A stretch of DNA of 64,000 bases from Pyropia yezoensis (Eukaryota; Rhodophyta; Bangiophyceae; Bangiales; Bangiaceae). Location of the stretch: positions 7,580,545 through 7,644,544 of the forward strand of contig CM020620.1 of NCBI GenBank assembly GCA_009829735.1, read 5' to 3'. The notes beneath the pieces were generated by a model. The model did not search any database, was not told the origin of the DNA, and worked only from the letters and a program-made list of their open reading frames with translations. A program made the translations under genes and the position numbers. This document shows positions 1 to 61,082 of the stretch, piece by piece (position 1 is the first letter of the stretch; each line of letters begins with the position of its first letter).

Positions 1-1683
1 CTCGTTGACCTGGAACTGGGTCCCAGCCGGGGCGATGTACGCTACCGTACCATGCTCATCAATCACCGGCGTCGCCGGTAGCAACAGGTGGCCCTGTTGG
101 TCGACTAGAGGTTCATCCTCACCGGTAGGGGTATGTTCGGTCGCCACCAGTACTGGTGCGGCCTTACGTTCCACCTTCTCTTGCCTCGGTACCGGGGTAA
201 GACTGGGCTTGCCTCCCTCACCCTTGGGCTTCGGGGCCAAGGCGCATTCCGGGTGTAGCACCCGGTAGGCGTCCCCTAGGGACTTGCACATATGCATTAG
301 TCGACTGAAGTTCGTCCGGGCCGTATTGGCTCCCCGTGCGGATATCCGCACGTAGTTGGGTACTCCTGCGAACAGGATGGCCCGTAGTTCCCCTTCACCG
401 TGGGGCTTCCCCAGCTCGTAGTCGAGCTCTTGGATCCGGCGTCCAAACATCTCCTCATCCTCCCAGGACTGGGCGGTGGCAGTGCGAAGGGCCCGATAGT
501 GGTCTTCGCACTTGTCCTCACTGAGGTAGCTGCTAAGCAACTCCTTCAATATACCACGGTAATCCATGGGGGTGGCTGCAACCCTCATTCCCGGCATCGG
601 GGATGCCTGGCGGAGGATGCCTCGAACCCGCTCGTCAACAAAGAACGGGAGGATCTCCAGCGCCAGCCCCTCGCTGACGAGTACCTTGTCTGCGGCTGCC
701 TTGAAGCTAGTCAAGAAGCCGATGACTGCCAACGGGCGTCCGTTGGGGCCCCCGAACATAAGGACTCCCTTCATAAGGGTCTGCATGGAGCGAATCGCTC
801 GGTGCGAGGTCGTACGCATCGATTCCGATACGGCAGTGGATCGGTCCTCCAAACGATAACGTTCGGGAGTCAGTACCGACCTGAAGACTTCGTTGACAAT
901 CTCCGTGTCCGCGTCCTGGATATCCAGTCGCTTCGCCAGTTGATGAGTGAACTCATCGGACTCCAACCGTTTCAGTAAGCTCGCAGTAACCTGCGCTGTC
1001 ATCGCTTGCATCAGTGACGCTGGAACTTCCGGCGTCGGCGCCTTGGGTACCCGAGTTGCCTGGCTTCCGTCGTCGAGGGGGTAATGGGAGACGGTACCGT
1101 CTCCCCCCCTCGCCGACTCTGCTCCGGCGTAAGTGTCCGCCGGACCGTGTCCGCGGAGCTTGCTCTGGGTGCTCCGAGCGTAGCGCTCCGTATGGCTACG
1201 TTCCAACTCACCCGACGAGTCGGATCCATAACCCGCCGTGTCCGGGGGTTGTCCAGGAGTAGCAACACCGGGGTTGACCCTGGTGGCCTCCGAAAGTAGT
1301 CCGGCCGGTTCGAACCGTACCGGTGTGGGGGGGACCCGACGGGGTACCGTCGAATGGCGTGCTGACGTCAGCACCGCCATTGCGTCCTCCGTACGCTCTT
1401 GTCGGGCGTCGAGCCCGGTGAACCGGGCTTCGATGCGAGCCAATGATGCCATCAGGGAGTCTCCTGGTGAAGGTGGCGGCGGCGTGAGGTCGGCAGAGGA
1501 CAGTTGCGGCGGTCCGCCGCCCCCGGCCGTCCGTGCCGTACCAAACGTCGATCCGGCACCGGAGAGCATCGGCGTCTCAATGTTGTCGATCGGGTTACCG
1601 ATCCCGGTTCCCAGGTTCAGCTCCGGGGTCGGCGTCGACGCCGATCCGTCATCTTGAACGTTCCTCGTATCTTGGGTAGACAT
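1..1683 (-). CDS. gag-like polyprotein of the left-edge Ty3 element, partial
   Basis: From an ATG at 1683 the minus frame stays open for 561 codons to the window edge without a stop. The first ~190 residues are low-complexity (Pro/Thr/Gly/Ser), as in many Ty3 gag N-termini. A predicted helical capsid-like region follows (about residues 235-480), rich in Leu, Glu and Arg. I see no zinc knuckle in the visible part; it would lie further left. Identification as gag rests on position (just downstream of LTR and primer-binding site), length and this two-part composition, not on a recognised motif. There are no internal stops, so this copy looks less decayed than the one at the right edge. Confidence 0.65.
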   Translation of the reverse strand, partial: MSTQDTRNVQDDGSASTPTPELNLGTGIGNPIDNIETPMLSGAGSTFGTARTAGGGGPPQLSSADLTPPPPSPGDSLMASLARIEARFTGLDARQERTEDAMAVLTSARHSTVPRRVPPTPVRFEPAGLLSEATRVNPGVATPGQPPDTAGYGSDSSGELERSHTERYARSTQSKLRGHGPADTYAGAESARGGDGTVSHYPLDDGSQATRVPKAPTPEVPASLMQAMTAQVTASLLKRLESDEFTHQLAKRLDIQDADTEIVNEVFRSVLTPERYRLEDRSTAVSESMRTTSHRAIRSMQTLMKGVLMFGGPNGRPLAVIGFLTSFKAAADKVLVSEGLALEILPFFVDERVRGILRQASPMPGMRVAATPMDYRGILKELLSSYLSEDKCEDHYRALRTATAQSWEDEEMFGRRIQELDYELGKPHGEGELRAILFAGVPNYVRISARGANTARTNFSRLMHMCKSLGDAYRVLHPECALAPKPKGEGGKPSLTPVPRQEKVERKAAPVLVATEHTPTGEDEPLVDQQGHLLLPATPVIDEHGTVAYIAPAGTQFQVNE

Positions 1684-1889
1684 AGTCACAATCAGTCAAC
1701 CTCCGAAACAGTCACCACGAATAGGAGAGCGAGGGGGTAGTTGGGGGAGAGTAACCGTACATCGCAGTCAAACGCAACCACTCAAAACAATCAATAGATC
1801 GCAGCACCACGAGTACAAGAAAAGGACTGGATCCTTATCCGTGTGCCAGGGCCGAAGACGGCGTCACCACAAGGGTTACGGAGACTTGT

Positions 1890-1906
1890 CCCCTGCTGCT
1901 CCACCA
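1890..1906 (-). promoter_or_regulatory. Primer-binding site of the left-edge Ty3 element
   Basis: The minus strand reads TGGTGGAGCAGCAGGGG one base after the LTR end. The plus strand, CCCCTGCTGCTCCACCA, has the form of a tRNA 3' end including CCA. The same 17-mer adjoins the LTRs at 13360 and 58989. Confidence 0.85.
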
Positions 1907-1907
1907 A

Positions 1908-2271
1908 TGTAGCACAATAGGGTATCCGCTGCACGTCCACTCTCAGGGAACACTCACCAGGGGGGATCGGCACCAACGTCACCGGGAGGACAAGGTTGCT
2001 GTCCTTGGAGCGCAAGCCACGGGACCAAGATGGGAGCGCAAATGGGAGGGGTTTGTTGTTCTACCTTGGCCGGCGGTGGATTCGCCGCCGGCCCCCTCGT
2101 TATAAACCCTCGGAGACACTACTAACTACCCTCCACCCCAAGATGCAAGTCCCGCTGGTCATACGTAACTTATAGATACCGTAACCAGTACGGACTCCCA
2201 AATTGAAAGTTAAGGGTTAGAAGTAGCCCCCCTAATATTAGGATCACAATACGGACAACCATATTGCTACA
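1908..2271 (-). repeat. 5' LTR (364 bp) of the left-edge Ty3 element
   Basis: It is bounded by the perfect 7-bp inverted ends TGTAGCA...TGCTACA. A near-identical copy lies at 18239-18600. Inside are a 9-bp-stem hairpin (2068-2076 with 2085-2093), present in both copies, a TTATAAA-type AT stretch at about 2099-2106, and a 12-bp palindrome CCTAATATTAGG at 2231-2242 that the other copy has lost. Confidence 0.92.
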
Positions 2272-2750
2272 CCGCCCCTGCTGCCCTAGGCTGCTGCAAA
2301 AGCGGCTGTGCACTGCCGCTGCCGCGGTTCGGCGCTGCCGTCGGTGCCGCTGGGCGCTGCTGCTGCCGCGGCTCAGCGCCGGCGCCGCTACGGTTGAGCG
2401 CTGCCGCTGCTGCGGCTGGGCGCTGCTGCCGCCGCCGGCTGGTGCCCGTGCTGCGGGGGGCTGCCAGTGCCCCGTCTGGGCGTTGCTAGCGCCGTGGCTG
2501 GGTGCTGCCGCAAAAGCGGTTGGGCCCTGCCGCCCCTGCGACGGCTGCCGCCGCCGGCCGCCGCCCCACCGCCTTTCCGCCCCACCCACTGCCGCCCCCG
2601 CTAGTCACTGCCGTCCCCATCTGCTGGCGTGCCGGTTTGCGCTGCGCCCCGCCGGCCAGCTGCTTACGCCGTCGCCGCTGGGCGCTGCAGCTGCTGCTGC
2701 CGCCGGCTGCGGCCCCATGAGCCCTGACGCCCTCGATAGGCACCACTGAT
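2272..2750. other. GC-rich triplet-like low-complexity DNA, no gene seen
   Basis: The stretch is dominated by imperfect GCTGCCGCTGCTGCGG-like units with a 3-base rhythm. Several frames stay open only because of this composition and give Ala/Arg/Pro/Gly-rich translations without domain structure. No coding call is justified. Confidence 0.6.
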
Positions 2751-2756
2751 GCTGCC

Positions 2757-3180
2757 GGCTTGTCGGCCGCGCCGGACACGACGGCATCGCGTCATCGCTT
2801 CGCCCACCCCCTTCCCCCTCTTATGCCGTGCTTTCTCCCACCCCATCTCGTACAGCTGGCGTCGAGGACCGCAGATGCTGAGAGCGTGCCGGCCGCGCCG
2901 GCCATGACGGCCGCGCGTGATCCCTTCCCACCCACCGCTCCCTCTCTTCGTACCGCGCTTCCCCTTACCCCATGTTCAGCTAGTGTCGGGCGCTGCTGAT
3001 GCTAAGGGTGCGCCGGCCGCGGCGGCCATGACGACCGCGCATCGTCGCTACTCCCACCCCCTTCCCCCGACTTCGCCTCGCTTCCCCCCACCGCATCTCT
3101 TACAGCTGGCGTCAAGCGTAGCTGCTGCCGAGGATACGCCGCCAGCGTGCGCGGCGGCCGCGGCGGCGGCCATCGCGGCC
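2757..3180. repeat. Tandem repeat, ~125-bp unit, about 3.4 copies
   Basis: Each unit runs from a GCCGGCCGC-rich block through a pyrimidine-rich centre (CCCACCCCCTTCCCCC-like) to a CAGCTGGCGTC-like block. The last block recurs at about 2853, 2977 and 3103, giving spacings of 124 and 126 bases. The units have diverged considerably. The period is not a multiple of three and frames change between units, so a repeat protein is unlikely. Confidence 0.75.
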
Positions 3181-3507
3181 GCCACCTTTACTATCCGCCT
3201 GTTGAGAGCTCTCAGCAGCGCTGCCTTACGGCGGCGCCGCCTGGTCAGGTAGAGAGTGAAGAGGGGGGGTGGATGAGTGTGGCTGGTTGACCAACTCCCC
3301 CCCCTCGTCTTGTCACGGACCGGCGCCCCATCGACCGCCCGTACTTCGCGCGTGCCTGCGGTCGGGTGGTCGATGGGCATCCGCGACGAGTGCATGACTG
3401 TGGCGGATGCCATGTAAGAGCTGGTTTCTTCCCCCCCCGCCGGCCCCTCCCCGCTGCGCGGGAAGGGGAAAGCACCCGCCTGCTCGCCTTGGGCGTGCTA
3501 CGCCTAC

Positions 3508-3624
3508 CTTCATGACGGCGTCGTCGACGAACATCGGCGACGCGGCAACACCTCCCTTCGCCGTGTACGCGACGCCCTTGACCCCCCTCGCTGTGTTCTT
3601 GTTCTTGTAGTGCCAGAGGCTCAT
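3508..3624 (-). CDS. Possible first exon of a small unrecognised gene
   Basis: An ATG at 3624 opens a short minus frame of normal, non-low-complexity composition (begins MSLWHYKNKN, includes GVAASPMFVDDAVMK). It reaches a consensus-like donor, AAG|GTAGGC, at 3507/3508, beyond which the translation turns into Arg/Gly/Pro-rich noise. The contrast on the two sides of the GT is the only evidence for an exon. I could not choose an acceptor and do not recognise the peptide. Confidence 0.2.
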
Positions 3625-3789
3625 GCCGCGCTTCTTTCTTTTGTGAGCCTGGAGCACAAAAGCTGAACCCGCGCTGTCGTGAGACAAAAAAGCAAGGCAG
3701 TGGGAGAGAAGGAAGAAACAGATAAACATACGCGCAGAGAATGCACGCCGAACAGTACGAAGACCGAGCAGATGAAATCGTCAAGCCTA

Positions 3790-4125
3790 TCAATTCTCTT
3801 GGAATGCTGGCGCACCCACGCACTCGGCACGGACCATCCCCTGAATGGCGGCAGCGACGCTGGGAAGCAGTGATGATAGTTCCTCAATGGGGATATCACA
3901 ACACAGCCAGTCCGCCACCTGTGCGGCGCAAAGCGAGCCGGACATCAATGCAAACCCACGCACATGGTGACGGGCCGCACCACATACAAAAAAAGCTGTC
4001 AAGCGGGGATCAGCGTCGCTCACGTCGGTCACACAAAACAATGCCCTTGACACGCGGTGCGCGATCTGCTCAGGCGTCATGCGAGAAAACGTCGCACTGG
4101 AAAAAGAGGGAAGCAGCACTGTCAT
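3790..4125 (-). CDS. Hypothetical protein, 111 aa (alternative to the plus-strand ORF at 4079-4387)
   Basis: ATG at 4125 gives an ordinary-looking 111-aa product with Cys-rich spots (ALFCVTDVSD, FFVCGAARHH, DWLCCDIP). It has no motif I recognise. The frame is open much further upstream, through 4740, but that part crosses the retrotransposon LTR end at 4454 and so cannot belong to the original gene. Its third codon positions coincide with those of the overlapping plus-strand frame, so GC3 cannot decide which strand is real. Confidence 0.3.
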   Translation of the reverse strand: MTVLLPSFSSATFSRMTPEQIAHRVSRALFCVTDVSDADPRLTAFFVCGAARHHVRGFALMSGSLCAAQVADWLCCDIPIEELSSLLPSVAAAIQGMVRAECVGAPAFQEN

Positions 4126-4387
4126 TGGCGCCCGTGATCCCGCCGGCCAAGACGACACAGACTCCCCCGAGCCCGAGCCCGAGTCGGCCGGCGGCTCGCG
4201 ACCCGCCACCAATCCCCCCGCACGTGCCCCACGCGTCCTCGACTTCCGCGAGCTCACTGCGCCGGGTGTCCGCGACCCGACCCGCGGCGACCTCGTCGCC
4301 GCCAAAACCGCCTTCCTCAAGGCTGCCGAGGCTGCCCTCGAGAGGCTGCCGTTAGCCGTGCTCTGCTGGGCGATTGCGCGGGTGTAG
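4079..4387 (+). CDS. Hypothetical protein, 102 aa (alternative to the minus-strand ORF)
   Basis: ATG at 4079, stop at 4387. An acidic, Pro/Glu-rich first half is followed by a helix-prone C-terminus (RVLDFRELTAPGVRD, then AAKTAFLKAAEAALERL). Codon use is very GC3-rich, as in the confident genes here. It ends 66 bases before the retrotransposon insertion at 4454. It overlaps the minus-strand candidate by 47 bases; at most one is likely to be real. Function unknown. Confidence 0.3.
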   Translation: MRENVALEKEGSSTVIGARDPAGQDDTDSPEPEPESAGGSRPATNPPARAPRVLDFRELTAPGVRDPTRGDLVAAKTAFLKAAEAALERLPLAVLCWAIARV

Positions 4388-4453
4388 GCGGACCGGTAGT
4401 TACCACCCGCTGATGGAACTCCGTCGACGCCCGCAACAACTCGGGACACGACG

Positions 4454-4922
4454 TGTGGCAAAAAACACTTACACACAAGGCACTCAAGTTGGGGCGGTGT
4501 ACAAGGGCTGCCTCCCGTGTCGGGGGAACCGGAAGAAGTGCAAGTCGCACACACTCTGTCCCTGTTGTGGGGCAAACCCCCCACGGACAAACAAGAGGAT
4601 GGTGTGTGGTCCAACAGTTTCTTGGTCGGGACGGGGACGCAGGGCCAAGCCCCGCTGTCCCTCCCCGTATCCCCCCAGAGTCCCCTCAGAATCTCGCCAC
4701 TCAGAATCTCCCACCCCAGCACCTGCCCACCGGGCCACACGAAAATTCAAGACGATAAATGCAGAAAACCCTCAAATCCAAGTTGGATTTACTACTAAGC
4801 TAAAAATCCCAAACTTAGGGAATACGCACCCAAATGCAGGGGGAGGAACGGATCAGGCTAGTGGCCTGCCGCCCCTCGCATGGCACGTGTTGCCCCCGTA
4901 CCTGGGGGTCAATACTGCCACA
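4454..4922 (-). repeat. 3' LTR of the 9.4-kb chromovirus
   Basis: 469 bp, ending in perfect inverted heptamers TGTGGCA/TGCCACA. It matches the LTR at 13360-13828 and the solo LTR at 43143-43611. Confidence 0.95.
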
Positions 4923-4934
4923 CTCCCCTCTCCT
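4923..4934 (-). promoter_or_regulatory. Polypurine tract
   Basis: The minus strand reads AGGAGAGGGGAG directly before the 3' LTR. This is the expected plus-strand priming site and confirms minus orientation of the element. Confidence 0.8.
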
Positions 4935-5259
4935 CAGCTCCGACCGACCCGGTCGGCCCTGTGAGGGGGTGCGTAAGCGCACGCCTCGGCGTCGGGGGCG
5001 CGACTTGCGGTCCCCCCTTGAGTACGTAACGCGGATGTGGAGGCGGTCACGTTGACCGCCCCTCTCCTCAAGCTTGCCCACTCGGCAGCTTGCTCTCCCC
5101 GGTTCTCACTTCACCATCCCACCACCTCCCCTTCGCCTTCCACTGGGCCGCTCCACGCTGGGGAGGCCACCCGTCTACCCACGATCCGAGTCCCCCTCAA
5201 CTCGAGGCGGGTCTCGTGCCGCTGTAGCCAGGGCGTCTCTCCCCAACTTGGGGAGAGCC

Positions 5260-7203
5260 ATGGCGACCCCGGGGGTGGAGACGGACTCTCTCGACGAACG
5301 TATGGAGGACACCTCCTACGGTGCAGCGCCCGCCGGGACTTCCGGCGGGGGCTCCGCGATCGCTCCGGGGGATGGGACTCCCGCGTCACCCGGCTTTGGG
5401 TTCACGGCGGGATCTCCCCCGGAGGCGGGACAAGTTGTCCCGCGTGAGACCTTGGGGCGGTGGTTTTACCCGGCTTGGCCCCTATATGAGGAGGGGTTGA
5501 CTGTTCTTCGCTGTGGCCGACTTGGCGCAGCGATGGGTCGGGTATGGGACCGCCTACGGGAGAAGCTTCCCCGTAGGGTCGGGTTCCCTGTCGGCTTCAG
5601 GACGGACCAGTTTGCCTTCCTGCACGACGAGGAGGTCGAAGACGTACAGCGGGCCAAGGCCATGGTGGACCGCGCGGGAACTATCCTGGGTCCCGGCGAC
5701 TTGCCGACCTTTACGTGGGACGCGGTGGCAACTCGCCCCCCGTACCTTCACGAGGCCGATCCGCACACTCATCACTTTGATGTGCGGATGGAGAAGGACT
5801 TCCGGCGAGGTCCCTACTTGGTGACCTCGGCTCAACTTGAGTTTCCTCAGCAGTCTGCTGCCAGTAAGGAGCAGTACTATCCGAAGAAGCCCGAGTGGTG
5901 GCCTCAAGTTGAGGTCCCCTATGGGCTCCCGGCGTTGCTGCCACGGTTGCTTAACCACTTCGGATCCGATATGTTGATGGCTGGCCCTGATCACCTGGTG
6001 TGGGCCATGTTGGCCACCCAGTGGCTCCTCGAGGTCATGTCGACCTGGGTGTCTTGTGTTCAGCAGCGGGGGATGCTCTGGCATCTCCCCCTCCGGCTTA
6101 TCCAAGGTTTGGAACGGCTCACCCCTCAGCTAGTTGCTGAGGGGTGCTCATCAGGACAACTCACTCTACTTGAGGAGATGCTCAGCCTCCACAAGTTTAT
6201 CGAGTGGGAGAGCATCGAGCACAAGTTGCGCCGCCCCACTCGTGGGCCCAAGGACGATGGCGCACTTCGCCAGTTCTTATGGGCCGCTCGTGAACTTCAC
6301 GACGGCCGTGTGGTCCTACGAGAGGGGTTGGGCATCGGGGACTACCCGTATTCCCCGGGGGTGGATCGCCACACTGCGCCACCCCCGGACAAGGCCATAG
6401 TTATGGCCGTGCCCTCACATGATGACCATATGACTCAACCCACTGCGGGGGGCCCAAGTCGGGGTCGCAGTTACACCCGGGTCCCGCCACCTCGGCGTGC
6501 CCCTCCGCTTCCTCCTGTCCCCTACCAGCCGCACGGGGACATCCCGAATAGCGTGGCCGTTGCGTCGTCCACCCCGGTGTCCCCCAACTTGGGGGCCACC
6601 CTCCTGACGGTATACCCCAAGTTGGTGTTACCGCCCACGCCTCTAACCTCAGAGATGATGATCACCACGATGGTGCGCACCATTTCCTGGTTGGCCGCGT
6701 CGACCGCAACCCTTCAAGCTTCCGAGACTCCTCAACTTGAGGAGCGCGTTCGTAATGCAGTGGCGACCGCGAGTTGCGAGTCGGTGGCGGAGTTTATGAC
6801 GGCCGAGTTGGCTCGCATTGGGGCTATTATGCCCCAGCCAGCCCCACTTGGGCGTGGCAAACGTCGTGCGAGCCGGGCATACTCGCCTCCTCGCCGTCGT
6901 CGCCGACGCTCGCGGCGCTCTCCCTCCGTGTCGGAAGACGAGTTGTCTGACTCCGTCTCGGAGTCCTCGACTCAGTCAGAGTCGAAGTCGGTCCGGCGTC
7001 TGCGTCGCCAACTTGCGCGCAAGACTAAGCAGAAGAGCAGCCGCGGTCGTCGCCACTTGCGCGACCATGAGGGGCGCGACGGGTCCGACTTGGAGCCGCC
7101 GGCTCCTCCGACTGGTGGGGAGCGTTATCGCCGGGGGTCTCGCCGCTCGCCTCCTCGTGAGGGCGAGGGCCGTGGGGTTGGAGAGTCTAGCATGCATGCC
7201 TAG
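5260..7203 (+). CDS. Antisense accessory ORF of the chromovirus, 647 aa, unrecognised
   Basis: It lies inside the element but on the strand opposite to gag and pol, convergent with pol (111 bases between the stop codons). The frame is open from 5074, but 5260 is the first ATG and has a good context (GCCATGG). I see three parts. An N-terminal ~80 residues are low-complexity. A folded-looking core (about 80-380) is rich in Trp, Tyr, His and Leu. A linker leads to a strongly basic, SR/RS-rich tail (about 531-647) with a run of six Arg, an acidic Ser-rich patch (SEDELSDSVSE) and another basic stretch. The tail suggests nucleic-acid binding or nuclear location; that is inference. I recognise no family. 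It is uninterrupted while gag and pol are damaged, and it carries the same CAASTTG palindromes as the rest of the element. Antisense ORFs at this place are known in some plant Ty3 elements, but I cannot say this one is homologous to them. Confidence 0.75.
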   Translation: MATPGVETDSLDERMEDTSYGAAPAGTSGGGSAIAPGDGTPASPGFGFTAGSPPEAGQVVPRETLGRWFYPAWPLYEEGLTVLRCGRLGAAMGRVWDRLREKLPRRVGFPVGFRTDQFAFLHDEEVEDVQRAKAMVDRAGTILGPGDLPTFTWDAVATRPPYLHEADPHTHHFDVRMEKDFRRGPYLVTSAQLEFPQQSAASKEQYYPKKPEWWPQVEVPYGLPALLPRLLNHFGSDMLMAGPDHLVWAMLATQWLLEVMSTWVSCVQQRGMLWHLPLRLIQGLERLTPQLVAEGCSSGQLTLLEEMLSLHKFIEWESIEHKLRRPTRGPKDDGALRQFLWAARELHDGRVVLREGLGIGDYPYSPGVDRHTAPPPDKAIVMAVPSHDDHMTQPTAGGPSRGRSYTRVPPPRRAPPLPPVPYQPHGDIPNSVAVASSTPVSPNLGATLLTVYPKLVLPPTPLTSEMMITTMVRTISWLAASTATLQASETPQLEERVRNAVATASCESVAEFMTAELARIGAIMPQPAPLGRGKRRASRAYSPPRRRRRRSRRSPSVSEDELSDSVSESSTQSESKSVRRLRRQLARKTKQKSSRGRRHLRDHEGRDGSDLEPPAPPTGGERYRRGSRRSPPREGEGRGVGESSMHA

Positions 7204-7314
7204 TTGGCAGCTGCCTTTGTTGTGAGAGGGTGAGGGTTAGGGCTGTAGTTAAAAGCTACTCTGCGTACCACTTCGACTTGAAGCACTCTCTTGGCACTGT
7301 TACTCAGCCTTCCC

Positions 7315-9009
7315 TCACGATGAGGGAGGGCTGTTAGGGTCTATCTCATTCCGGGCACAGTATGCCCGGACCTTCTCAGCGGAAAGGTCCTCCACATACT
7401 CCCACGTATCATCCTTGGCTTTGTAGCCAAACCAACGCACCCTCAACATGAGGCGGTCAATGTCCTCATCCCAGCCGTGGTCGATGAACTTATCGAACAC
7501 GTACTCCTGCGGGCCCTGTTTGGCCGCAGGCAGTGAGGGGAGGCGCCACGCTTTCAACGCACGCGCCCAAGCTGGGTCGCCTGCAGGCGGTGGTGCAACT
7601 TTGACCACGTCCTGTCCGTTCACTGTGCGGACCCCATCGTCACTTTCGAAGGTGAAGCGCCGCCCATCAGTACGAAGGACCTGGTACGGCCCCTTCGTCT
7701 GGAATACCAACTTACCCCCAGTTGGGGTGTGTGAGTGGACCAATACCCAGTCACCCTGTTCGGGGACATGCTTGGCGTTGCGCACCCTTTTGTCAAAGGT
7801 ACGCTTGTAGCGCTTTTGTGCTTTGTCCATCTCAGCCCTGACTTTAGGGATGAGGTTTTCAAGCCTAGCAGCGAACTCCGCCTTACTCTCAGTAGGAGTA
7901 GGCGTCCTGCCACCATCCTCCCTAGTTGGCAGCGACCGCCGCACAGCAATAGACCGCACGCGACGGGGGGTCATAAAAGCGAGGGGTACTTCCCCGGTAG
8001 ATGAGTGAACCTGCGAATTGTAGGCAGTCGTAAGAATAGAAATGTATTGGTCCCACGTTTTCACGTGCTCACTCACATAGTGGCGCAGCTGCCTAACAAT
8101 AGTTCTGTTGAAGCGCTCCACCTGCCCATTGGTTTGTGGGTGGTAGGGGGTGGCATAGTTTGCCCGCACCCCCAACATATCCAGCACTCCCTGAAACAGT
8201 ACAGACGCAAATTGCGGTCCATTGTCCGATAGTGTACTATCCGGAATGCCATACGCGGCAACCCAGTGATCTAGGAAGGCTGACACGACCGACATGGCCG
8301 TGATCTCTGCCAGTGGGATCGCTCGCGTAAGTTTCGTGAAGCGGTCACAGATAACCAGGAGGTACTGGTTGCCCTCCTCGGTCACTGGCAGCGGCCCAAG
8401 GATGTCCATCGCCAACGCGGCAAAGGGCTCCTTGGCCGGGAACAATAGCATAGCCGTAGTAGGCCGCCGTTCCATCAGACGTTTCTGTGCACAACTTGTG
8501 CAGGCAGCCACCCAACTGTAGATGTCCACCACCATGGACGGCCAGTAGTACCAGGTCCTGAGGGTCTGGTGCAGTTTACTAGACCCCGGGTGTCCACCTG
8601 TGGGAGCGTTCTGCTCCCTCTCAAGGATACTGTCCTTGAGGGATGCGGGGACGACAAGTTCTTCGGTCCCCTGGAATACCCCCCTCCTCATGAGGAGGCC
8701 ATCGTCTCCCAGAAAGAACCGCGTCTCCGCCACTGTGTCCAGTGTATCCCTGTGCGACTTGCAGAAGGGATCCTCGGCCTGGGCCTTCACCACCTCGTCC
8801 AGGGACAGGGGCAAGTACTTCTTGTTCCCTGGCGCCTCGGGGTTCAACGCCTGACCCGAGCGCGTGACTACCCCCACGATGGGGATGTCCTCATCGACTG
8901 GGTTAGTGTCCAGCCCCTCGGTAGGTACCCGAGAGAGGCCGTCGGCAAGGGCATGTTGCCTGCCAGGTCGGTACTCAATATCAAAGTTGAAGGGTGCCAG
9001 TCGCACCCT
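7315..9009 (-). CDS. pol, second part: integrase with chromodomain (after an in-frame amber codon)
   Basis: This continues the same frame as the RT part, separated by a single TAG at 9010-9012. It opens with the end of RNase H and the LAPFNFDIEYRPG motif typical of Ty3 elements. Next come an HHCC zinc-binding region (GHPGSSKLHQ then CTSCAQKR) and the integrase catalytic triad (D in LAMDILGP, D in DNGPQFAS, E in HPQTNGQVERF). The basic C-terminal part ends in a chromodomain (YVFDKFIDHGWDEDID, LRVRWFGYKAKDDTWEYVEDL). Integrase inserts the cDNA; chromodomains of this class are thought to steer it to methylated histone H3. The codon before the chromodomain and the stop at 7315 look normal. Confidence 0.9.
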   Translation of the reverse strand, partial: RVRLAPFNFDIEYRPGRQHALADGLSRVPTEGLDTNPVDEDIPIVGVVTRSGQALNPEAPGNKKYLPLSLDEVVKAQAEDPFCKSHRDTLDTVAETRFFLGDDGLLMRRGVFQGTEELVVPASLKDSILEREQNAPTGGHPGSSKLHQTLRTWYYWPSMVVDIYSWVAACTSCAQKRLMERRPTTAMLLFPAKEPFAALAMDILGPLPVTEEGNQYLLVICDRFTKLTRAIPLAEITAMSVVSAFLDHWVAAYGIPDSTLSDNGPQFASVLFQGVLDMLGVRANYATPYHPQTNGQVERFNRTIVRQLRHYVSEHVKTWDQYISILTTAYNSQVHSSTGEVPLAFMTPRRVRSIAVRRSLPTREDGGRTPTPTESKAEFAARLENLIPKVRAEMDKAQKRYKRTFDKRVRNAKHVPEQGDWVLVHSHTPTGGKLVFQTKGPYQVLRTDGRRFTFESDDGVRTVNGQDVVKVAPPPAGDPAWARALKAWRLPSLPAAKQGPQEYVFDKFIDHGWDEDIDRLMLRVRWFGYKAKDDTWEYVEDLSAEKVRAYCARNEIDPNSPPSS

Positions 9010-11298
9010 CTACCGGTTGAGACGAGTGTTCGTACAGTCCGTCTTGAAGATGAACTGCAACGCGCGGTGGTCACAGCGGATGAGGAACTTCTCACCCTCT
9101 AGGTAGTGACGAAGTGACGTCACCGCCCACAACACTGCGAGTCCTTCCAACTCGGTGACTCCGTAGTTCTTCTCGGCCCAGTTCAGCCCCTTGCTGAAGT
9201 ATCCCACCGGCAAGTACTCCTTGTCCGGCTGCTGCTGAAGCAACACACAACCAAGTTGGTCGTAGCTAGCGTCCACATCCAGGATGTAGTGGCCTCCCAA
9301 CCTGGGAATAGCCAGGATAAGGGGCTTCAGCTGAAGGTCCCGGAGAGTCTCAAAGGATTCCTGCTCCACCCGACTTGGGGGAGGCAGGTTCTTCGGTAGC
9401 GTTGAGCTCACGAACTCATTCAACGGTTTCGCCACCTTGGCGAAGCCCTTGGTGAAACGTCGGTACACGTTACACATCCCGAGGAAGCTCCTCATCTGGG
9501 TCTGGGTCCGGGGGTACTGAGCCTTACGGATGGCCCTCAAGTTTTTCTCGTTGACACTGAGACGCCCTGGACGGACAACATGTCCCAAGTATTCCACCTC
9601 GTGAGTGAAGAGGTGGCAGTTACTCGCCTTCAGTGACACACCGGCGTCAGCAAGTAGCTTGAACACCTGGCCAAGATGGCCAATGTGTTCCTCCGGACTT
9701 CGGGAGAGCACAATGATATCGTCTAGGTGCACGAGACAGATCTGCCACCGTACTCCGGCCAGAATCATGTTCATAGCGCGCTGGAAAGTTGCCGGCGCGC
9801 TACACAGGCCAAACGGTAGAAGCTTGCACTGGTAGGTACCACAGTGACAGGTCACGGTAGTTTTATGCCTGTCCTCCGGGGCAATGGGAATTTGCCAGTA
9901 CCCCGCGTTACAGTCCAGGGTAGAGAACACGTTCGCCTCCCCCAGGGAGTCCAGACAGTCGTCCATCCTAGGTAGGGGATAACTGTCCCTCACCGTGCTC
10001 TCGTTGAGCGTACGGTAGTTGATACAGAACCGGGGGGTCCCATCAACTTTGGGGACGATAACCACCGGACTCGCCCCCTCGGCGTTACTGGCCTCGATCA
10101 CATCGACGGCCTCCATGCGAGCAACTTGCTCCTTAACGAGGGCCCTTGAACGGGATCCTCCCCTATACGGTTGTTGGCGTATAGGGGGTGCACCGGGCTT
10201 CAACTCGATCCGGTGTAGGGTGGCTCTCATGAGTCCCAATTGACCATCCCACAACTTGTGATATTGGTCCAAGAGGCGTTCAACTTGAACCCTCAACCTG
10301 GGTGGGACACCCTCCATGTTCACATGGGGCCGAGGAGAGGCGGCCGACTTGGCTTGATGCTTCTCCTTTCCGGACTTCGGGTCGCTACTTGCGCCCGCGT
10401 TGAGGGTGACCGCTACTACCGGTCCCTCGTGTTGGTCGATATAGCCGAACTTGGCTCCCGACTTGAAGTACTTGGGCGACGAGCTCAGGTTCATAACCTG
10501 GATCCTCCACAGGACTCCGGCTTTGGAGTCCATCGTGCCAAGGGCAACATGCACTTGGTGCTTGCGAGCATGACGGGGGTGAGGGTGCACCAACCCGTTC
10601 CCCGTATGATCAGTTACAACGTCAACGTGCGCCACCGAGTTGGGGGGCAACGTGACTTTACGGGCTAAACGCAGGGTAGCAGTAAACCCTTCTCTCACAG
10701 AGCAAACAGGCTTCGACTGTGAGACTGTCACAGGAGCCACAGACCTTCCCTTACCAAGGATGGGGATAGTTTCCCCATTCATCAACTTGACCCAATACTC
10801 AGGGCTACAAATCAAAGGCACTTGTGTAACAACATAAGGGGTACCCAGAAGCAGCGGTACCGATATATTCTCAACTACTCCATAGGTCATGTCGACCTCA
10901 TGGGTCCCCAACCTAGTTGGTAGGGTCACGGCACCAACGATGGGAAGTACCCCACCTTTGATATCGATCAGATGGTCAGCTTTAGACCTCCAGCGTTGGA
11001 GCTTCACCTCCTTTGGTAATAGCGACTTGCGTATCAAGGAGGCTCCTGACCCGGTACCAAGTACGATACGGGCACAGCAGGCACGGCCGGGGGCAAGTTG
11101 CACCCGTCCAGCCACCTGGAAGTTCTCACCCGTCAGCACCGGGATGACCCGACGTGGGTTTAAGTTCTTGGGGAGTCCTACCCGAGGTGGGCGGACTCCT
11201 TTAGGTCGCCGCAGTATCCGGCACGGTTGGTTCGTCCTCTTGACCCACTTGGCCGAGGCTGCCGTTGTGAGCTTCGGACGGCCAGCTCCAACGGTCAT
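9010..11298 (-). CDS. pol, first part: protease, reverse transcriptase, RNase H
   Basis: ATG at 11298 overlaps the gag stop as ATGA. Domain order: retropepsin-like (about residues 60-180), RT (about 350-560) and RNase H (about 650-760). RT shows the expected blocks (PRFCINYRTLN, YPLPRMDD, FSTLDCNAGYWQI, LLPFGLCSAPATFQ) and a catalytic HLDD box where YLDD/YVDD is usual. RNase H shows ILDVDAS, the Glu in VTELEGLAV and RCDHRAL. The protease site reads LGTGSGAS: the catalytic Asp of D-T/S-G is Gly (codon 11056-11058). The frame ends at TAG 9010-9012, at a site where related elements have Trp (RLxRW), so this is probably a nonsense change. It would make gag processing and integrase expression fail from this copy. 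Confidence 0.92.
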   Translation of the reverse strand: MTVGAGRPKLTTAASAKWVKRTNQPCRILRRPKGVRPPRVGLPKNLNPRRVIPVLTGENFQVAGRVQLAPGRACCARIVLGTGSGASLIRKSLLPKEVKLQRWRSKADHLIDIKGGVLPIVGAVTLPTRLGTHEVDMTYGVVENISVPLLLGTPYVVTQVPLICSPEYWVKLMNGETIPILGKGRSVAPVTVSQSKPVCSVREGFTATLRLARKVTLPPNSVAHVDVVTDHTGNGLVHPHPRHARKHQVHVALGTMDSKAGVLWRIQVMNLSSSPKYFKSGAKFGYIDQHEGPVVAVTLNAGASSDPKSGKEKHQAKSAASPRPHVNMEGVPPRLRVQVERLLDQYHKLWDGQLGLMRATLHRIELKPGAPPIRQQPYRGGSRSRALVKEQVARMEAVDVIEASNAEGASPVVIVPKVDGTPRFCINYRTLNESTVRDSYPLPRMDDCLDSLGEANVFSTLDCNAGYWQIPIAPEDRHKTTVTCHCGTYQCKLLPFGLCSAPATFQRAMNMILAGVRWQICLVHLDDIIVLSRSPEEHIGHLGQVFKLLADAGVSLKASNCHLFTHEVEYLGHVVRPGRLSVNEKNLRAIRKAQYPRTQTQMRSFLGMCNVYRRFTKGFAKVAKPLNEFVSSTLPKNLPPPSRVEQESFETLRDLQLKPLILAIPRLGGHYILDVDASYDQLGCVLLQQQPDKEYLPVGYFSKGLNWAEKNYGVTELEGLAVLWAVTSLRHYLEGEKFLIRCDHRALQFIFKTDCTNTRLNR

Positions 11299-13264
11299 TC
11301 GTTTCCCGCCGACTTGGCGTCCGAATCTGAGGACGAAGGGGAAGACGACGAGTCCGAGGACGACGTGTCCGCCCCCTCCGCCGAGGGTGTGGCGACCGCC
11401 ACCACCGGTCGAGACCCACCCTCGCGGCGTGAACGTACTTCGTTCGTAGCCGACTTCTTACTCGCATTCCTAACAAGTTGTTGGATGCGTTTACTCAACT
11501 TGGGGCAATCATATGCCCAGTGTCCATCGGAGTTGCAGTTCCAACACCGATTATCAGTTCCCGGAGGGGTCTTCCCAACTGGGGAAGGCGAAGAGATACC
11601 CTGGGAAGTTCCCACGGCAGCTACCACCTTCTCCTTGCGGATTCGGCGTGCCTCTCTCAACTCTCTGGCCTGGCGCGCCTCCTCCCGTTCCTTGGCCAAC
11701 TCGGCTTGACGCTCCTGGCGTTGTTCCTCCCGCAACTTGCGGTAGGCCTCGCCTCTGCGGTAGGCGAACCTAGCCAACTCGGCCAGGGTCGCCCGGGCAG
11801 TGTTATGCTCCCGGGTCTCCATCCGGACTGACCACTGGAGTCCCTCCACAAACCAACTCTTCACCACAGCTTGTGGATGAAGAAACCCACAAAGAATGTT
11901 GAGCTTACGGACTCGCTCCGCAAAGGACAACTCGTCCTCCGCCTCTTCCTGATGGGCTTGCGTACACTCCTCGACTCGAGAAGCCAACGCCGCTTCATCA
12001 ACCATGGCCCTCAACAACCAGTTGACGAGCTCCGAATAGGACGTCACCTCCCCAGCGCCTCCACTTGAGGAGCTGGGCATGACGGACATAAGTTCTGTCC
12101 GCAGGTCTCCCTTCGTAAACTCCTGTAGCATGTAAAAAGCCATGCGTTCACTTATGGCATTGTCGTCACAGGCTTTTGTGAAACGACGTAGGAACTCAAA
12201 GACACGGAGGGGGGGAGTTCCATCCCACTCCGCTTTGTGCCCAAAAGAGTGAAATGCATTCTTCTTGGCACGGCCCATGGCTCGGGCCTGGTCAGGACCA
12301 TACGCCACCGACTTGTTGTGGAGGGCGTAGGTCTCACAATGAAAGATCCTCTGGTAGACCGGGTTGGCTACCTGGATCTTGGGCGGCACCTCACGTTGAG
12401 GTAACAGCCGCTGTGGCACTGGGGCAAGTTGACCCTCAGTGCCCATAGTCTGGCGCGGCGCGCTTGGTGTAGCCGCCGGCGTTTCCGAGGGGAACTCCCC
12501 CGTGAAGGGCGTACGCCCCACCGAGAATGGTGCGGCTCCCACGTTGGGAGTCACAGGGGTCGCCCCCTGTTCGGGGCGACCCGGAATAGGCGTCAGGGGA
12601 GATTCCCCCTGCGCCTGCGGGCTCGAAAGCCCCAATCCGGTCTGGACATTAAGGCCATCTGGCAAACTCGCCACAATCTGATTCAGAATAGTATTCGTCA
12701 TAGTGACCACCAGGTCCGGCAAAGTCTGCCGCAACACATTGGTCGCCTCCCGACGGACAGTTTCCGCGAGGAGTGGATTGACGACTCCAGTTGAGTCTCG
12801 GTCCGCCTCCGGGAGTCCACCTGAGGGGTAACCACGTTCCTCAGGGGTCTCAATCGGGGCATGGGCGCGAGCCCATCGCCGACCAACGGAGGTCCGCCGT
12901 CCTCCGAAAGCCTAGTTGGCGACGGCTCCAAGCCAAAGTTGGCTCCAACCCGAGTGGAACCCGCGGGGACAGTCCTCACCCCTTGGGACGTTCCCGTTGA
13001 GTGTACCACACGGTGGCCAGACTTCGGCCCACCCACATCAGAAGTGTCACCCGAGTGAACTCCCGACTGAGTCGGGGTGGCCTGTTGCCCGCCCGCACTT
13101 CCAGTCCTGCTAGCTTGTGGGACCTCTAGTCCCTCTGCGACCCCAGGTAAACCCACCTGTGTCTTACCAGTATTCAAAGGCACTGAAGTACGTGCGTCAC
13201 CCGTGTACTCCCCGGACGACGGGGGGTCCGAACTAGCCACGTTGGCTGACGATCCGTATGACAC
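11295..13264 (-). pseudogene. gag of the chromovirus, frameshifted
   Basis: The 3' part (12737 to 11295) encodes a capsid-like segment (FHSFGHKAEWDGTPPLRVFE onward), a long charged coiled-coil-like stretch (about 11640-11760) and a CX2CX4HX4C zinc knuckle (CWNCNSDGHWAYDC). The N-terminal Pro/Thr/Gly-rich part is in another frame from 13264. The two read smoothly into each other if one base is gained or lost near 12855; the 3' frame has a TAG upstream and no ATG of its own. The N-terminal frame begins with GTG in a context (ACCGTGTC) that suggests a lost ATG. So this gag is probably non-functional, or needs recoding. It is followed by pol with a 4-base ATGA overlap. Confidence 0.75.
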
Positions 13265-13340
13265 GGTCCAAGCCCACCGTTCCTCTGAGACAGAGGGCCC
13301 CCTACACCCGGGTGCACCCGGAGGTAAAGTTTACCTCTGT

Positions 13341-13357
13341 CCCCTGCTGCTCCACCA
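13341..13357 (-). promoter_or_regulatory. Primer-binding site of the chromovirus
   Basis: The minus strand reads TGGTGGAGCAGCAGGGG two bases after the 5' LTR end; it is identical to the sites at 1890-1906 and 58992-59008. Confidence 0.9.
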
Positions 13358-13359
13358 AA

Positions 13360-13828
13360 TGTGGCAAAAACCACTTACACACACGACACCCAAGTTGGGG
13401 CGGTGTACAAGGGCTGCCTCCCGTGTCGGGGGAACCGGAAGAAGTGCAAGTCGCACACACTCTGTCCCTGTTGTGGGGCAAACCCCCCACTGACAAACAA
13501 GAGGATGGTGTGTGGTCCAACAGTTTCTTGGTCGGGACGGGGACGCAGGGCCAAGCCCCGCTGTCCCTCCCCTTATCCCCCCAGGGTCCCCTCAGAATCT
13601 CGCCACTCAGAATTTCCCACCCCAGCACCTGCCCACCGGGCCACACGAAAATTCAAGACGATAAATGCAGAAAACTCTCAAATCCAAGTTGGATTTACTA
13701 CTAAGCTAACTATCCCAAACTTAGGGAATACGGACCCAAATGCAGGGGGAGGAACGGATCAGGCTAGTGGCCTGCCGCCCCTTGCATGGCACGTGTTGCC
13801 CCCGTACCTGGGGGTCAATACTGCCACA
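13360..13828 (-). repeat. 5' LTR of the chromovirus
   Basis: 469 bp with TGTGGCA/TGCCACA ends, about 97% identical by eye to the 4454-4922 copy, and followed by the second target-duplication copy CGACG. Confidence 0.95.
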
Positions 13829-13842
13829 CGACGGATGGCCCC

Positions 13843-17239: not shown

Positions 17240-18890
17240 AGTTTTGCCTCCGCAGGGGGGGGGGGCACGCCCAGTTAAGGGGCCGTTTTTTGTGCATCCT
17301 GGGTTTCACGGGCTCCCTCGTCTCCTCATTGGCCGACAAAGATCGATTCGATCGCTACGAGAGACAATTCTTTCACCGCATTGGCTCAAGAGCCAGGTGT
17401 CAGGTCTTTTTCTTCCTTTGGGCCACAGGAAGTTGAAGAATGTACACGTGTTCACCTGCACCCGGTGTCGCGGCCGTGTGAGGCACGTGAGAGCTAAAAA
17501 GAATGAAAAAGAACGCTGAGCAAAGAGTCAACCGTTCCTCAAAGAACGGATGCTGGAGCCACGCACCGCACCATCAAGCCCACCCTCCCCTCCTCATCCA
17601 CTCTCACAGCGCCCAAAGCCCTTGACTCTCATCCGGCGCACCCTCAAATGGCTCAATACCCGTCACACCCGGGGTTGGCGAGGTCAAACAGGGGTGAGCC
17701 CGGCGCAGGGGGCGTCTCTTCACGTCTCGGGGGGGGTGCAGTTCCCCCATGACTGTGACTCTACCACCTGTGGCGGATGTACGGTCCTCTGCATCTCGGA
17801 GGCTTTTAGAAAACCCCCCCCCCGCCGGGGTCTGAAGGAGACAGCCCTTCCCCCATCAATAACTCCATTCCTGTCGCTGTTACCCCGGGCTTTCTCAGAC
17901 ATCTCTGAGACTCCCCGGGGAAGCGTCCGCAGGCGTACTATGAGGGACGAAAGGCCTCCGAGATGCAGAGGACCGTACATCCGCCACAGGTGGTAGAGTC
18001 ACAGTCATGGGGGGACTGCACCCCCCCCGAGACGTGAAGAGACGCCCCCTGCGCCGGGCTCACCCCTGTTTGACCTCGCCAACCCCGGGTGTGACGGGTA
18101 TTGAGCCATTTGAGGGTGCGCCGGACGAGAGTCAAGGGCTTTGGGCGCTGTGCGAGGGGATGAGGTGGGGTGGGTGGCACTTCACCAAGGTGTGGTGTTT
18201 CGGTCCGGCAGCCGTTCTTCAAGGAGCGGTTGACTTTCTGTAGCACAATAGGGATCCGCTGCACGTCCACTTTCAGGGAGCACTTACCAAGGGGGATCGG
18301 CACCAATGTCACCGGGAGGCCAAGGTTGCTGTCCTTGGAGCGCAAGCCACGGGACCAAGATGGGAGCCCAAATGGGAGGGGTTTGTTGTTCTACCATGGC
18401 CGGCGGTCGATTCGCCGCCGGCCCCCTCTTTATAAACCCTCGGAGACACTACTAACTACCCTCCACCCCAAGATGCAAGTCCCGCTGGTCATACGTAACT
18501 TATAGAAACCGTGACCAATACGGACTCCCGAATTGAAAGTTAAGGGTTAGAAGTAGTCCCCCTATAGTAGGGTCACAATACGGTCATCCATATTGCTACA
18601 CTCTCCACTATGCATTCTTTTCTAATCTGTTCTATTCTCACCTGCCCCAGACGGCCGCGACAACGGGTGCAGGTGAACACGTGTACATTCTTCAACTTCC
18701 TGTGGCCCAAAGGAAGAAAAAGACCTGACACCTCGCTCTTGAGCCAATGCGGTGACAGAATTGCTTCTCACAGCGATCACATTGATCTTTGTCAGCCAAT
18801 GAGGAGACAAGGGTGCCCGTGACACCCAGGCTGCACAAGAAACGCCCTCTTGACTAGGCGTGCCTCCGGGGGGGACGAGGCTCCTTGAAC
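17240..18890. mobile_element. Long foldback (inverted-repeat) element split by a solo LTR
   Basis: The left arm (~17240-17806) and the right arm (~17950-18890, minus the LTR at 18239-18600) are reverse complements. They flank a 143-bp centre that contains an 11-base C run. The inner arms (about 17635-17806 with 17950-18120) match almost perfectly; the outer arms (about 17285-17516 with 18604-18840) only at roughly 85% by eye. No transposase is present and open frames across the arms are shadows. It looks like a non-autonomous foldback or long-TIR DNA transposon; the outer ends are approximate and I found no convincing target duplication. Confidence 0.75.
18239..18600 (-). repeat. Solo LTR of the left-edge Ty3 family
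   Basis: 362 bp, bounded by TGTAGCA...TGCTACA and highly similar to 1908-2271, with the same internal hairpin. The flanks CTTTC (18234-18238) and CTCTC (18601-18605) look like a target duplication that has since changed at one base. It sits within the right arm of the foldback element; the left arm lacks it. Confidence 0.9.
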
Positions 18891-20874: not shown

Positions 20875-23273
20875 TCACACGCCCGCCGCGTCTGGTGAGG
20901 CGGTCAGTGCCACAACAACGCCCAAGTCCTCCTCCTCGGGTTCCGGTGCCGCCGCCGCAACGGCAGCCACAAGGGCGACCGGCGGTGCCACACTGGTGGC
21001 CACCGCCCGCCCCACCACCCCGCCCGCGCCTTTTCCCTCGTCTGCTGATGGCAACGATGGCCCGTCGGCGACGTCGTCGAGCTTGGCCCGCTTGGCAGGC
21101 GGGCCACTGTCAGTGTCCCCAGCACTGGCGGGCACCCCCTCCGCCCCCTCCGCCGCAGGACGGGACGCCTCCCGCGGGCGCTTGGCCGGCAGCCCACCCC
21201 CGCCACCCGCGGCAGAGTCCCCCCCCAGCGCGGCCGCGTCGGCCGCCCGAACGCGGGACAAGTACACTCCGTACGTCTCCACCACCCACCCTCGGCGGGC
21301 CGCCGCGGTGGCCACCGCCGCGGCGGTCGCCGGGTCGGTACGGGCGGCGGGGTCGGCCGCGGCGGCCACGAGCAGCAGCGTCCCGGGGGGGGCCAGCCAC
21401 CACAAGCCGGGCCGCTCGGTGCTGAACGGGAGCGCGCCGGCGAGGGCGGAAAGGACTGCCTCCTGCGACAGCCGTCGAGGGGGGAGAGGCGGACCCGGCT
21501 GTGAGGAAAAGGCGGTGATCCCGTCGCCATGGGCGGCAACCGCAGGGGCGGCCGCACAAGCACCTGCCGTATCGGCGGGCGGGAAAACACCGGAGAGGTG
21601 CAGCACGTCCGTGCGGTCTTCCCACCCATTGACCTCGTCCGCGCCAGACGCGTCACCAAAGTCCACATACTCGTACCCGCCGCAGCGGGGGAGAGGCACC
21701 CGGTTGACCAGAGACGGCAACAGGCCCTCTGCGTCCCCGTCAAAGGCCGCGTCGTCGTCGGCAGATGCACCATCTGCCGCAACACCGCTCCTTGCCTCTG
21801 GCAAGCTGATCGAGGGCGGAGGCCCGCCCAAGCGGGGCGCCGACAACTCCCGGATGCGGCCGTCGAGGCGACTTCCCCCCATACCCGTCGTCGCAGCAGC
21901 GAGATTGAGGAACAGCCGCCCCGTCTCGAAGGCGTCATACGCCGCGTCGTGGTACTGGCTGGCCGCCTCGGACCCCGCCGGGATCTCGTACCGCCGAAAG
22001 CCCGGTGCAAAGGTAGTGCTCTCGAGTGTCACCCTCCTCACCCCTGCTTCACCGTCCACCCCTTCCTTCGCTCCCTTTCCGCCGTCCAACTCGGCGGCCG
22101 CGGTTGCAAGCGCCCGTGCCGCCTCCTCCAAGCCCGTCCCCGACGCGGCGAGCGCCGCGCGGAGCCCCCGCGGGGTGGCCGCCGAGCGGCTGACGATGGA
22201 GGCAAGATGCTTGGTGTCGACCAGGTGTGGCGTCAGCCCAGAGCGTACGAGGGCCTTGAAGGCTGGCAAACTCGGCGGCGGAGCCGCCACAAAAGCAGAA
22301 ACGCACTTGATGAGGTCCAACCAGCAATTATGACCGACTAGCAGAACCCGTTTGGAGGCAATCAGGTCAACGACACGACGAAAGCCGACCGCTTCCCCCA
22401 GCGCCTTGTCCACACCACCCCCGTCGCGGCTCGCGCGAGAGGCGGCATAGGCCACCTGCTGCTCGGCACACATGACGGTGAGGGTGAGTTTGCTCTTGTC
22501 CGCCGACACACGCGGCTCCAGCGTCGGGAACTCCCGCTCGAGGAGATCGTACACCAATTTGCGCCGAAACGCCGATGGGGAGGCATCGAGCTCCAACCGC
22601 TGGGACTTGCGGGCGGTGTCCCCCAGCCAGTGCCTGATGAGAGTGGCGGTGGTGGCGAGGAATGCCGTCTCGGGGGGGCGGAGGGAACGCAGCGACACCG
22701 CATCGCGAGTCTTGGCCGCGTGAGCCGTCAGGGCGAGCCGAGCAGCCGCCTCCTCATCAGGTCGCAGCCAGCTGCTGCCCTTTGCAAAGGTACGCGAAAA
22801 GTCAAAACCGACGCCCGACAGGAATCCGACCGTCGAGGCGGAAAGGGAAAAGGATGTGTCGATGAGCGGGAAACGGCCACCCCGTGGAGGATACAATGGC
22901 CGCCGCACCAGCGGAAAGCTGTACGGCCGGACTTGCCAGCCGCCGCCAGCGGGGTCGTGCCGAAAGATCGCCAGGCCAAACTGACATGGTGGAAACTGCT
23001 CCGCGTGACTCTTGGTCGTCGGGGGAGAGGGGAGGGGCCGGGGGGAAATTAGGCCCTCACCAGCAGCGGGGGTCGCACCTTCTGTACTGGAACGTGGGGG
23101 GGGGGGGGTGGTCCGACACAGGCCGTGTAGCGAGACTGGGGGGTATCCCCAGGGAGGGGTGTGACGGGCGGCAGGCCCGTGAATTCCAGGTCAAACGCCG
23201 CAAAAGAGCAGCAAGACAGGTCCGCAGAAAGGTCAGAGAGGATAGCAGGGAGGTTCGAAGCAGTCACCTCCAT
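20875..23273 (-). CDS. PARN: Poly(A)-specific ribonuclease PARN, two exons, 772 aa
   Basis: PARN is a DEDD-family 3' exonuclease that removes poly(A) tails and trims some small RNAs. Exon 1 (23273-23061) starts at ATG 23273 and carries the first DEDD motif, FDLEF (Asp28, Glu30). Exon 2 (22980-20875) holds GHNCWLDLIK with the third acidic residue and YHDAAYDAFETG with the catalytic His and last Asp, so all DEDDh residues are present. I place an 80-bp intron at 22981-23060 (CTG|GTGAGG...TGTCAG|TTT); it keeps the frame and joins the two conserved blocks. A 13-base G run (23096-23108) just inside exon 1 encodes a Pro stretch not usual for the family, so a second tiny intron there is possible. The C-terminal ~300 residues are Ala/Gly/Pro-rich and poorly conserved. 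It is divergent from the fibrillin-like gene. Confidence 0.9.
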
Positions 23274-31864: not shown

Positions 31865-31866
31865 TA

Positions 31867-53408: not shown

Positions 53409-53445
<37 letters not shown>

Positions 53446-58989: not shown

Positions 58990-58991
58990 TT

Positions 58992-59008
58992 TGGTGGAGC
59001 AGCAGGGG
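58992..59008 (+). promoter_or_regulatory. Primer-binding site
   Basis: TGGTGGAGCAGCAGGGG, identical to the sites of the other two Ty3 elements in the window. Confidence 0.9.
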
Positions 59009-61065: not shown

Positions 61066-61082
61066 CCGCCAAAACACCCTGT

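Follow-up and report, generated by a model that had tools for sequence, protein, structure and literature searches.

The antisense open reading frame (ORF) analysed here lies in a 64,000-nucleotide stretch of the genome of the red alga Pyropia yezoensis (assembly GCA_009829735.1, contig CM020620.1, forward-strand positions 7,580,545 to 7,644,544), referred to below as the window, and is carried by a Ty3/gypsy retrotransposon, here called family A, that spans 4454-13828 (~9.4 kb) on the minus strand. Its two long terminal repeats (LTRs), found by alignment to each other with ends set by reading, are 97.2% identical across 470 bp and are located at 13360-13828 (5' LTR, minus strand) and 4454-4922 (3' LTR, minus strand). 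The target-site duplication (TSD) CGACG flanks the element on both sides (4449-4453 and 13829-13833). A probable polypurine tract, purine-rich and recognized by sequence reading, adjoins the 3' LTR (4923-4937, minus strand), and a primer-binding-site-like stretch adjoins the 5' LTR (13348-13359, minus strand), where GCTGCTCCACCAA (plus strand) stands beside the 5' LTR in family A and in family C (see below) alike. Gag and pol are both on the minus strand: an open frame with a CCHC zinc knuckle detected by domain search is gag (11295-12737), and pol, also delimited by domain search (7315-11298), consists of a protease-like region, reverse transcriptase (RT) and RNase H (9010-11298) followed by integrase with a chromo-like domain (7315-9006), its stop codon starting at 7315. 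A preliminary description of this DNA held that gag, protease and pol were all damaged. Pol is indeed split by a single in-frame stop at 9010, and GTG stands in the protease motif in place of the usual D[T/S]G, but gag shows no clear break: its zinc-knuckle ORF is open, and a further frame lies upstream. Pfam found Ty3-type RT, RNase H and integrase, with integrase last, in the pol of the families treated here, and Chromo at the right place, the integrase C-terminus, with 19.4 bits in family A, 19.5 and 14.2 bits in family B and 14.4 bits in family C, all below the curated threshold of 25.1 bits. A solo family A LTR in inverted orientation is found at 43142-43616 (93-95% identity to the LTRs of the element).

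Between the pol stop and the 3' LTR, on the plus strand and antisense to gag and pol, lies an ORF of 647 codons (5260-7203). It runs stop-free from an ATG, in a frame that is already open from a TTG at 5074; 111 bases separate it from pol, and a 336-bp leader (4924-5259, plus strand, by sequence reading) separates it from the 3' LTR. The LTR and TSD coordinates thus agree with its preliminary placement inside the element on the strand opposite to gag and pol, and both the 111-base distance to the pol stop and the unbroken frame were read again from the sequence. The remaining five frames of 5260-7200 carry 11 to 23 stops each, and the codon usage of the ORF frame correlates best with that of gag-pol (r of 0.735; 0.21-0.61 in the other frames). 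The encoded protein has a disordered N-terminus (residues 1-60), a Trp-rich core (approximately 61-320), a Pro-rich linker, a short C-terminal stretch and an RS/Arg-rich tail (531-647). The Trp-rich core and SR/Arg-rich tail noticed before were borne out by composition, with 11 Trp in the 260 residues of the core and 29 Arg and 21 Ser in the 117 residues of the tail, whose net charge is +19.

The ORF is not confined to the window. When the 107.48-Mb assembly was searched with a 27-base word from the core of the family A ORF (up to 3 mismatches), 1,146 occurrences were found, and none with the reversed control; core words of the antisense ORFs of two further Ty3 families, B and C, occurred 469 and 831 times, which gives approximately 2,400 core-word copies over three families. 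A DNA search with the family A ORF scored 40 places of 1,523 candidates, all full length and 96-100% identical, so that the ORF is present in sibling elements, and when residues 61-367 served as a protein query, 129 of 3,253 candidates were scored, every one full length and stop-free, in a list ranked by protein score and biased to intact copies. In the 39 DNA-nearest copies (window copy excluded), which were picked by similarity to the ORF itself so that ORF-less elements could not appear, the ATG is kept without exception (39/39); 20 have neither stop nor indel, one or two stops interrupt 16, and the remaining 3 show small indels only. The integrase part of pol is complete and unbroken in 16 of the same 39.

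Families B and C are both represented in the window by elements that run past its edges. The family B element begins with a 5' LTR at approximately 58417-58987, continues with gag and pol and reaches the right edge (58417-64000, plus strand); its RT is 40% identical to that of family A. In the copy L048, which covers the extension beyond the window, a degraded antisense coding stretch (approximately 2657-4900, minus strand) lies between the pol end and the 3' LTR (L048:4978-5549), and in other family B copies (L054 and L056-L058) the antisense frames are open for 702-810 codons. A search for family B with a query of 306 residues scored 129 of 1,780 candidates; 123 of them had no stop in this stretch, and 6 had one. 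The family C element runs past the left edge (1-2271, minus strand; 5' LTR 1908-2271, gag 247-903), and its 3' LTR, at L061:1459-1822, is 98% identical to the 5' LTR, with CCGCC as the TSD. Here, too, an antisense ORF lies between pol and the 3' LTR (L061, approximately 2278-4751, plus strand). In this copy a frameshift splits it into two frames; in L062 and L063 it stays open over 825-827 codons. The corresponding search scored 131 of 2,435 candidates (125 stop-free, 6 with one stop). To the left of the window, a 3.2-kb protease-RT-integrase stretch of the family C element stands in tandem (L055:592-3797 and 3797-7003) with 99.84% identity, either a recent duplication or an assembly artefact.

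Pol is approximately 40% identical in each pair of families (A-B, A-C and B-C). The cores of the antisense proteins were compared by local alignment with BLOSUM45 and 500 shuffles per pair. The cores of A and B aligned with a score of 157 (shuffle mean, 52.6; standard deviation, 8.2; z, 12.7) and those of A and C with a score of 139 (shuffle mean, 53.5; standard deviation, 8.8; maximum, 122; z, 9.8), and in neither case did any of the 500 shuffles reach the score. A separate alignment of A with L054 gave a z of 13.5. Common landmarks are RGMLWHLP in A, SNRLWFLP in B and QGRLFHLP in C, as well as YYPKKPEWW in A and YYPKV in B. Since the cores are only 23-26% identical between families, compared with approximately 40% for pol, the core evolves faster than pol; the N- and C-terminal parts do not align between the families.

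Variants shared by at least two of the 39 copies were taken as marking transposing lines, whereas singletons were taken as mostly post-insertion. In the ORF frame, the 93 synonymous and 73 non-synonymous shared variants gave a ratio of non-synonymous to synonymous polymorphism (pN/pS) of 0.27, far below 1, and the 162 synonymous and 351 non-synonymous singletons gave 0.75 (Fisher test of shared variants versus singletons, 2.5e-8). The integrase part behaved in the same way (73 synonymous and 58 non-synonymous shared variants versus 148 and 292 singletons; Fisher test, 9e-6), and the pN/pS of shared variants was close in the two genes (0.26 for the ORF and 0.25 for the integrase part). Within the protein, the values were 0.18 for the core, 0.22 for the RS tail and 0.40-0.42 elsewhere. 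In family B, the cores of L054 and L057 differ with a synonymous divergence (dS) of 0.49 and a non-synonymous divergence (dN) of 0.10 (ratio, 0.205), their linker and C-terminus with a ratio of 0.29 and their N-terminus with a ratio of approximately 1, and in family C the dN/dS of L062 versus L063 was 0.33. The comparisons of L061 with L062 and L063 (0.50 and 0.57) are inflated, because the L061 stretch begins in another frame before the frameshift, and were not used. The family A ORF is under purifying selection.

These data bear on two rival explanations. The antisense transcript itself could be the functional part, acting through double-stranded RNA, repression of the sense RNA or copy-number control, with the ORF a mere passenger; an antisense RNA would overlap the 3' part of the genomic RNA, a possibility discussed for plant elements in PMC7264820. 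However, selection is frame specific. When the same DNA was read in the other five frames, pN/pS was 1.18, 1.67, 1.04, 1.97 and 0.38, the last value coming from the opposite frame that shares third positions with the ORF, and amino acid homology persists between families whose pol is only approximately 40% identical. A transcript as the sole role is largely refuted by the frame test, and we regard it as very improbable. The other rival is a host gene captured recently, or an ORF that arose by chance in GC-rich DNA; such DNA gives many long ORFs, and the window has 106 of at least 150 amino acids. Capture in the window copy alone and a chance origin are nevertheless ruled out by the occurrence of homologues at the same place in two other Ty3 families, by the copy numbers, by frame-specific selection and by the stops in the other frames, and the chance that either applies is very small; an older host origin of the antisense gene is possible.

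We conclude that the ORF is a genuine protein-coding and conserved accessory gene of the retrotransposon, a conclusion of which we are nearly certain. Because its copies are under selection and homologous cores are found in families B and C, sequence comparison indicates that the product is an old, selected, element-encoded protein with core homologues at the same place in three Ty3 families, and the sibling copies, the selection and the two homologous families together uphold the earlier idea of an element-encoded protein gene. What kind of protein it is was addressed by searches. Pfam had no match for the antisense proteins of A, B or C, a profile search of PDB returned 0 sequences at E values up to 10, and TRP28 (PF04195) gave 0 matches at E values up to 10 across the whole genome. 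Searches of IMG/VR with the A protein and with the three-family core alignment, and of GTDB contigs with the A protein, gave pattern matches with no relative confirmed in these collections, which contain few or no eukaryotes. Three candidate identities were rejected. An Env-like protein does not fit an antisense ORF, and the highest 19-residue hydropathy was 1.23 in A, 1.54 in B and 1.37 in C, with no clear transmembrane segment at the usual threshold of 1.6. An SR splicing factor, which would combine an RNA-recognition motif with an RS domain, is not supported, as the RS-rich tail was seen in A only and no Pfam domain was found. A TRP28/Retand-type protein was discarded for want of a PF04195 match.

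As to function, the arrangement matches that of the antisense ORFs of Grande, RIRE2 and Retand, and since it does, we infer that the protein would be made from a separate antisense mRNA, whose promoter might be located in the 3' LTR or the 336-bp leader, and that it would act in trans in the nucleus to regulate its own element, either at the level of transcription or by escape from silencing. The helical Trp-rich core could then be the common interaction domain and the fast-evolving ends, including the RS/Arg tail of A, the adaptable, family-specific part. A nuclear regulatory role, suggested by analogy and the most likely of the functions considered, is tentative and falls somewhat short of an even chance.

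The family A element is rich in a short palindrome. CAA[C/G]TTG occurs 24 times in its 9.4 kb, where 1.2 (first-order) to 3.3 (second-order) occurrences are expected, and outranks every other 7-letter word of the element (Poisson tail, ~1e-12.7); the other 54.6 kb of the window contain 5, with 6.2 expected, and one of these five is in the solo family A LTR, at 43574. The two orientations are equally frequent (12 each), and examples within 4454-13829 are the sites at 5244, 5431, 6585, 6733, 8492, 10122, 10281 and 11733. Many sites have extended complementary arms of differing sequence. The flanks prolong the palindrome to a summed arm length of 54 over 22 sites (mean of 7.7 and maximum of 29 in 100,000 simulations). 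Palindromes with a one-base centre and arms of at least 6 number 19 in A (3.5 expected), and perfect ones whose centre is two bases long and whose arms measure 6-9 number 15, 11, 10 and 9 in four stretches of family C (0.7-1.2 expected); in these stretches (L061:1459-5601, L055:102-3797, L062 and L063) a short hairpin occurs approximately every 100 bases. Palindromes in family B are at background. The null for these palindromes is imperfect, since an ordinary stretch at 31-41 kb also exceeds it (54 versus 29), but not in the classes with one- or two-base centres. LTRs, gag, pol and the antisense ORF all contain palindromes. Each of the eight CAA[C/G]TTG sites within the family A ORF is kept in 30-38 of the 39 copies, and their arms vary like other positions (0.0306 versus 0.0319). 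Double changes were rare (1 or 2 in A; 0-4 per comparison in C, of which 0-2 keep the pair), the copies being too similar to tell whether they are compensatory. The palindromes may be recognition sites, packaging hairpins or template-switching products of reverse transcription.

If they were recognition sites, the antisense protein could bind the motif scattered through its own element and open it against silencing, as the VANC proteins of the Arabidopsis VANDAL elements do. The excess of CAA[C/G]TTG in A over both expectation and the rest of the window would be explained by such self-recognition, and equal orientations fit recognition of double-stranded DNA; according to PMC5735166, VANC21 binds a nine-base motif that is dense in its own family. 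However, a comparably strong word was found in neither B nor C despite their homologous core, the sites are also in coding regions, unlike VANC motifs, and the arms prolong the sites into perfect palindromes that differ in sequence from one another, a pattern that points to structure more than to base reading. Anti-silencing by self-recognition appears improbable. A private two-part system, in which an antisense protein that combines a common core with a fast-changing specificity tail would act together with family-specific palindromes (odd-centred CAA[C/G]TTG in A, two-base-centred ones in C) that mark the element's own DNA or RNA for expression, silencing escape or packaging, is likewise improbable. 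To our knowledge, no such self-recognition system has been reported in LTR retrotransposons, and it would be the first if true.

Some retroviral accessory proteins serve particle assembly, RNA packaging or transport of the preintegration complex, and the antisense protein could likewise be cytoplasmic or particle associated and not a regulator of transcription. Its conservation alongside pol in three families is compatible with this, the RS/Arg tail of A could bind RNA, and the short hairpins in which A and C, though not B, are rich could be packaging marks. On the other hand, antisense production is uncoupled from gag-pol translation, which would be unusual for a component of particles, the families do not share the tail, B lacks the hairpins, and the hairpin arms in the A ORF are no better conserved than the rest. 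We consider a particle-associated protein rather unlikely.

Several observations weigh against a conserved gene for a nuclear regulator. The leader, a candidate promoter region, has no extra conservation (0.116 shared variants per site versus 0.090 in the ORF). The cores of B and C did not align significantly with each other (z, 0.4; score reached by 142 of 500 shuffles) and are taken as related because A aligns to both; moreover, 1 of 300 BLOSUM62 shuffles reached the A-L054 score, and hhalign gave an E value of 5e-4 for A and B but a probability of 31%, from two inputs that each contained hardly any sequence diversity. Past the core, the proteins show no significant alignment between families (z, -0.02 to 1.95), and a single-sequence AlphaFold2 model of residues 61-367 had a mean predicted local distance difference test score of 39, too poor for a fold search. 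Also, the private changes of the window copy (3 synonymous and 19 non-synonymous) bear no mark of constraint, which is what a dead copy would show. Family A alone was seen to have the RS/Arg tail, and in one B and one C protein the last 200 and the last 130 residues carry net charges of -2 and -4, respectively; the nucleic acid binding proposed in the preliminary description, which was based on this tail, is not supported. For the whole statement, a coding gene whose product is a nuclear, trans-acting regulator of its own element, we estimate a probability of about 0.5. With approximately 2,400 core-word copies in a 107-Mb genome and an available transcriptome, expression is directly testable.

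The rest of the window contains further repeats and genes. A 465-bp direct repeat (31407-31870 and 54589-55053; 94% identity, 23 kb apart) is perhaps a pair of solo LTRs of one family, and nested inverted repeats lie at 17261-18867 (arms of 268 nucleotides at 86% and 228 nucleotides at 97%), with a second copy of the family C LTR at 18239-18601. Pfam identified host or transposon genes for a CAF1 ribonuclease (20875-22908), a DEAD-box helicase (25014-26855), a DDE_Tnp_4 transposase (40856-42064), a tryptophan 2,3-dioxygenase (48818-51112) and a biopterin-dependent aromatic amino acid hydroxylase (53026-54144); the last two are neighbours.

Among the open-access papers listed by literature searches, none came up that describes an antisense ORF in a red-algal LTR element. 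The closest known systems are the additional antisense ORFs between pol and the 3' LTR of plant elements, namely gene23 of maize Grande, that of rice RIRE2 and ORF4 of Silene Retand, as described in PMC7264820 and PMC11963269; the Grande protein is nuclear and has its own promoter according to the former. Like the family A ORF, the plant ORFs have the same place and the antisense orientation, are kept in most copies and have no clear database relative (PMC7264820), and the parallel drawn in the preliminary description holds for place and orientation in all three families. The nori ORFs differ in their red-algal host and in a core that is unrelated by Pfam. Retand and its relatives, moreover, are non-chromoviruses and carry TRP28, for which the Pyropia genome has no match. 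Boty of Botrytis cinerea, a fungal Ty3 element cited in PMC7264820, also has an antisense ORF, and HBZ of the deltaretrovirus human T-cell leukemia virus type 1 (HTLV-1) is, according to PMC11963269, an accessory protein encoded in antisense close to the 3' end of a reverse-transcribing element; both are likened here by description only. VANC is a possible functional analogue, being an element-encoded protein whose own family is dense in a short motif (PMC5735166), but VANDALs are Mutator-like DNA transposons with their motifs in non-coding tandem repeats, and families B and C have no comparable word. Antisense accessory ORFs have previously been described mainly from flowering plants, with functions unassigned. 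Since a red alga shows the same arrangement with an unrelated protein, and does so in three Ty3 families approximately 40% identical in pol and with measurable purifying selection, such a gene would appear to be useful to LTR elements generally and to have arisen or been kept more than once.
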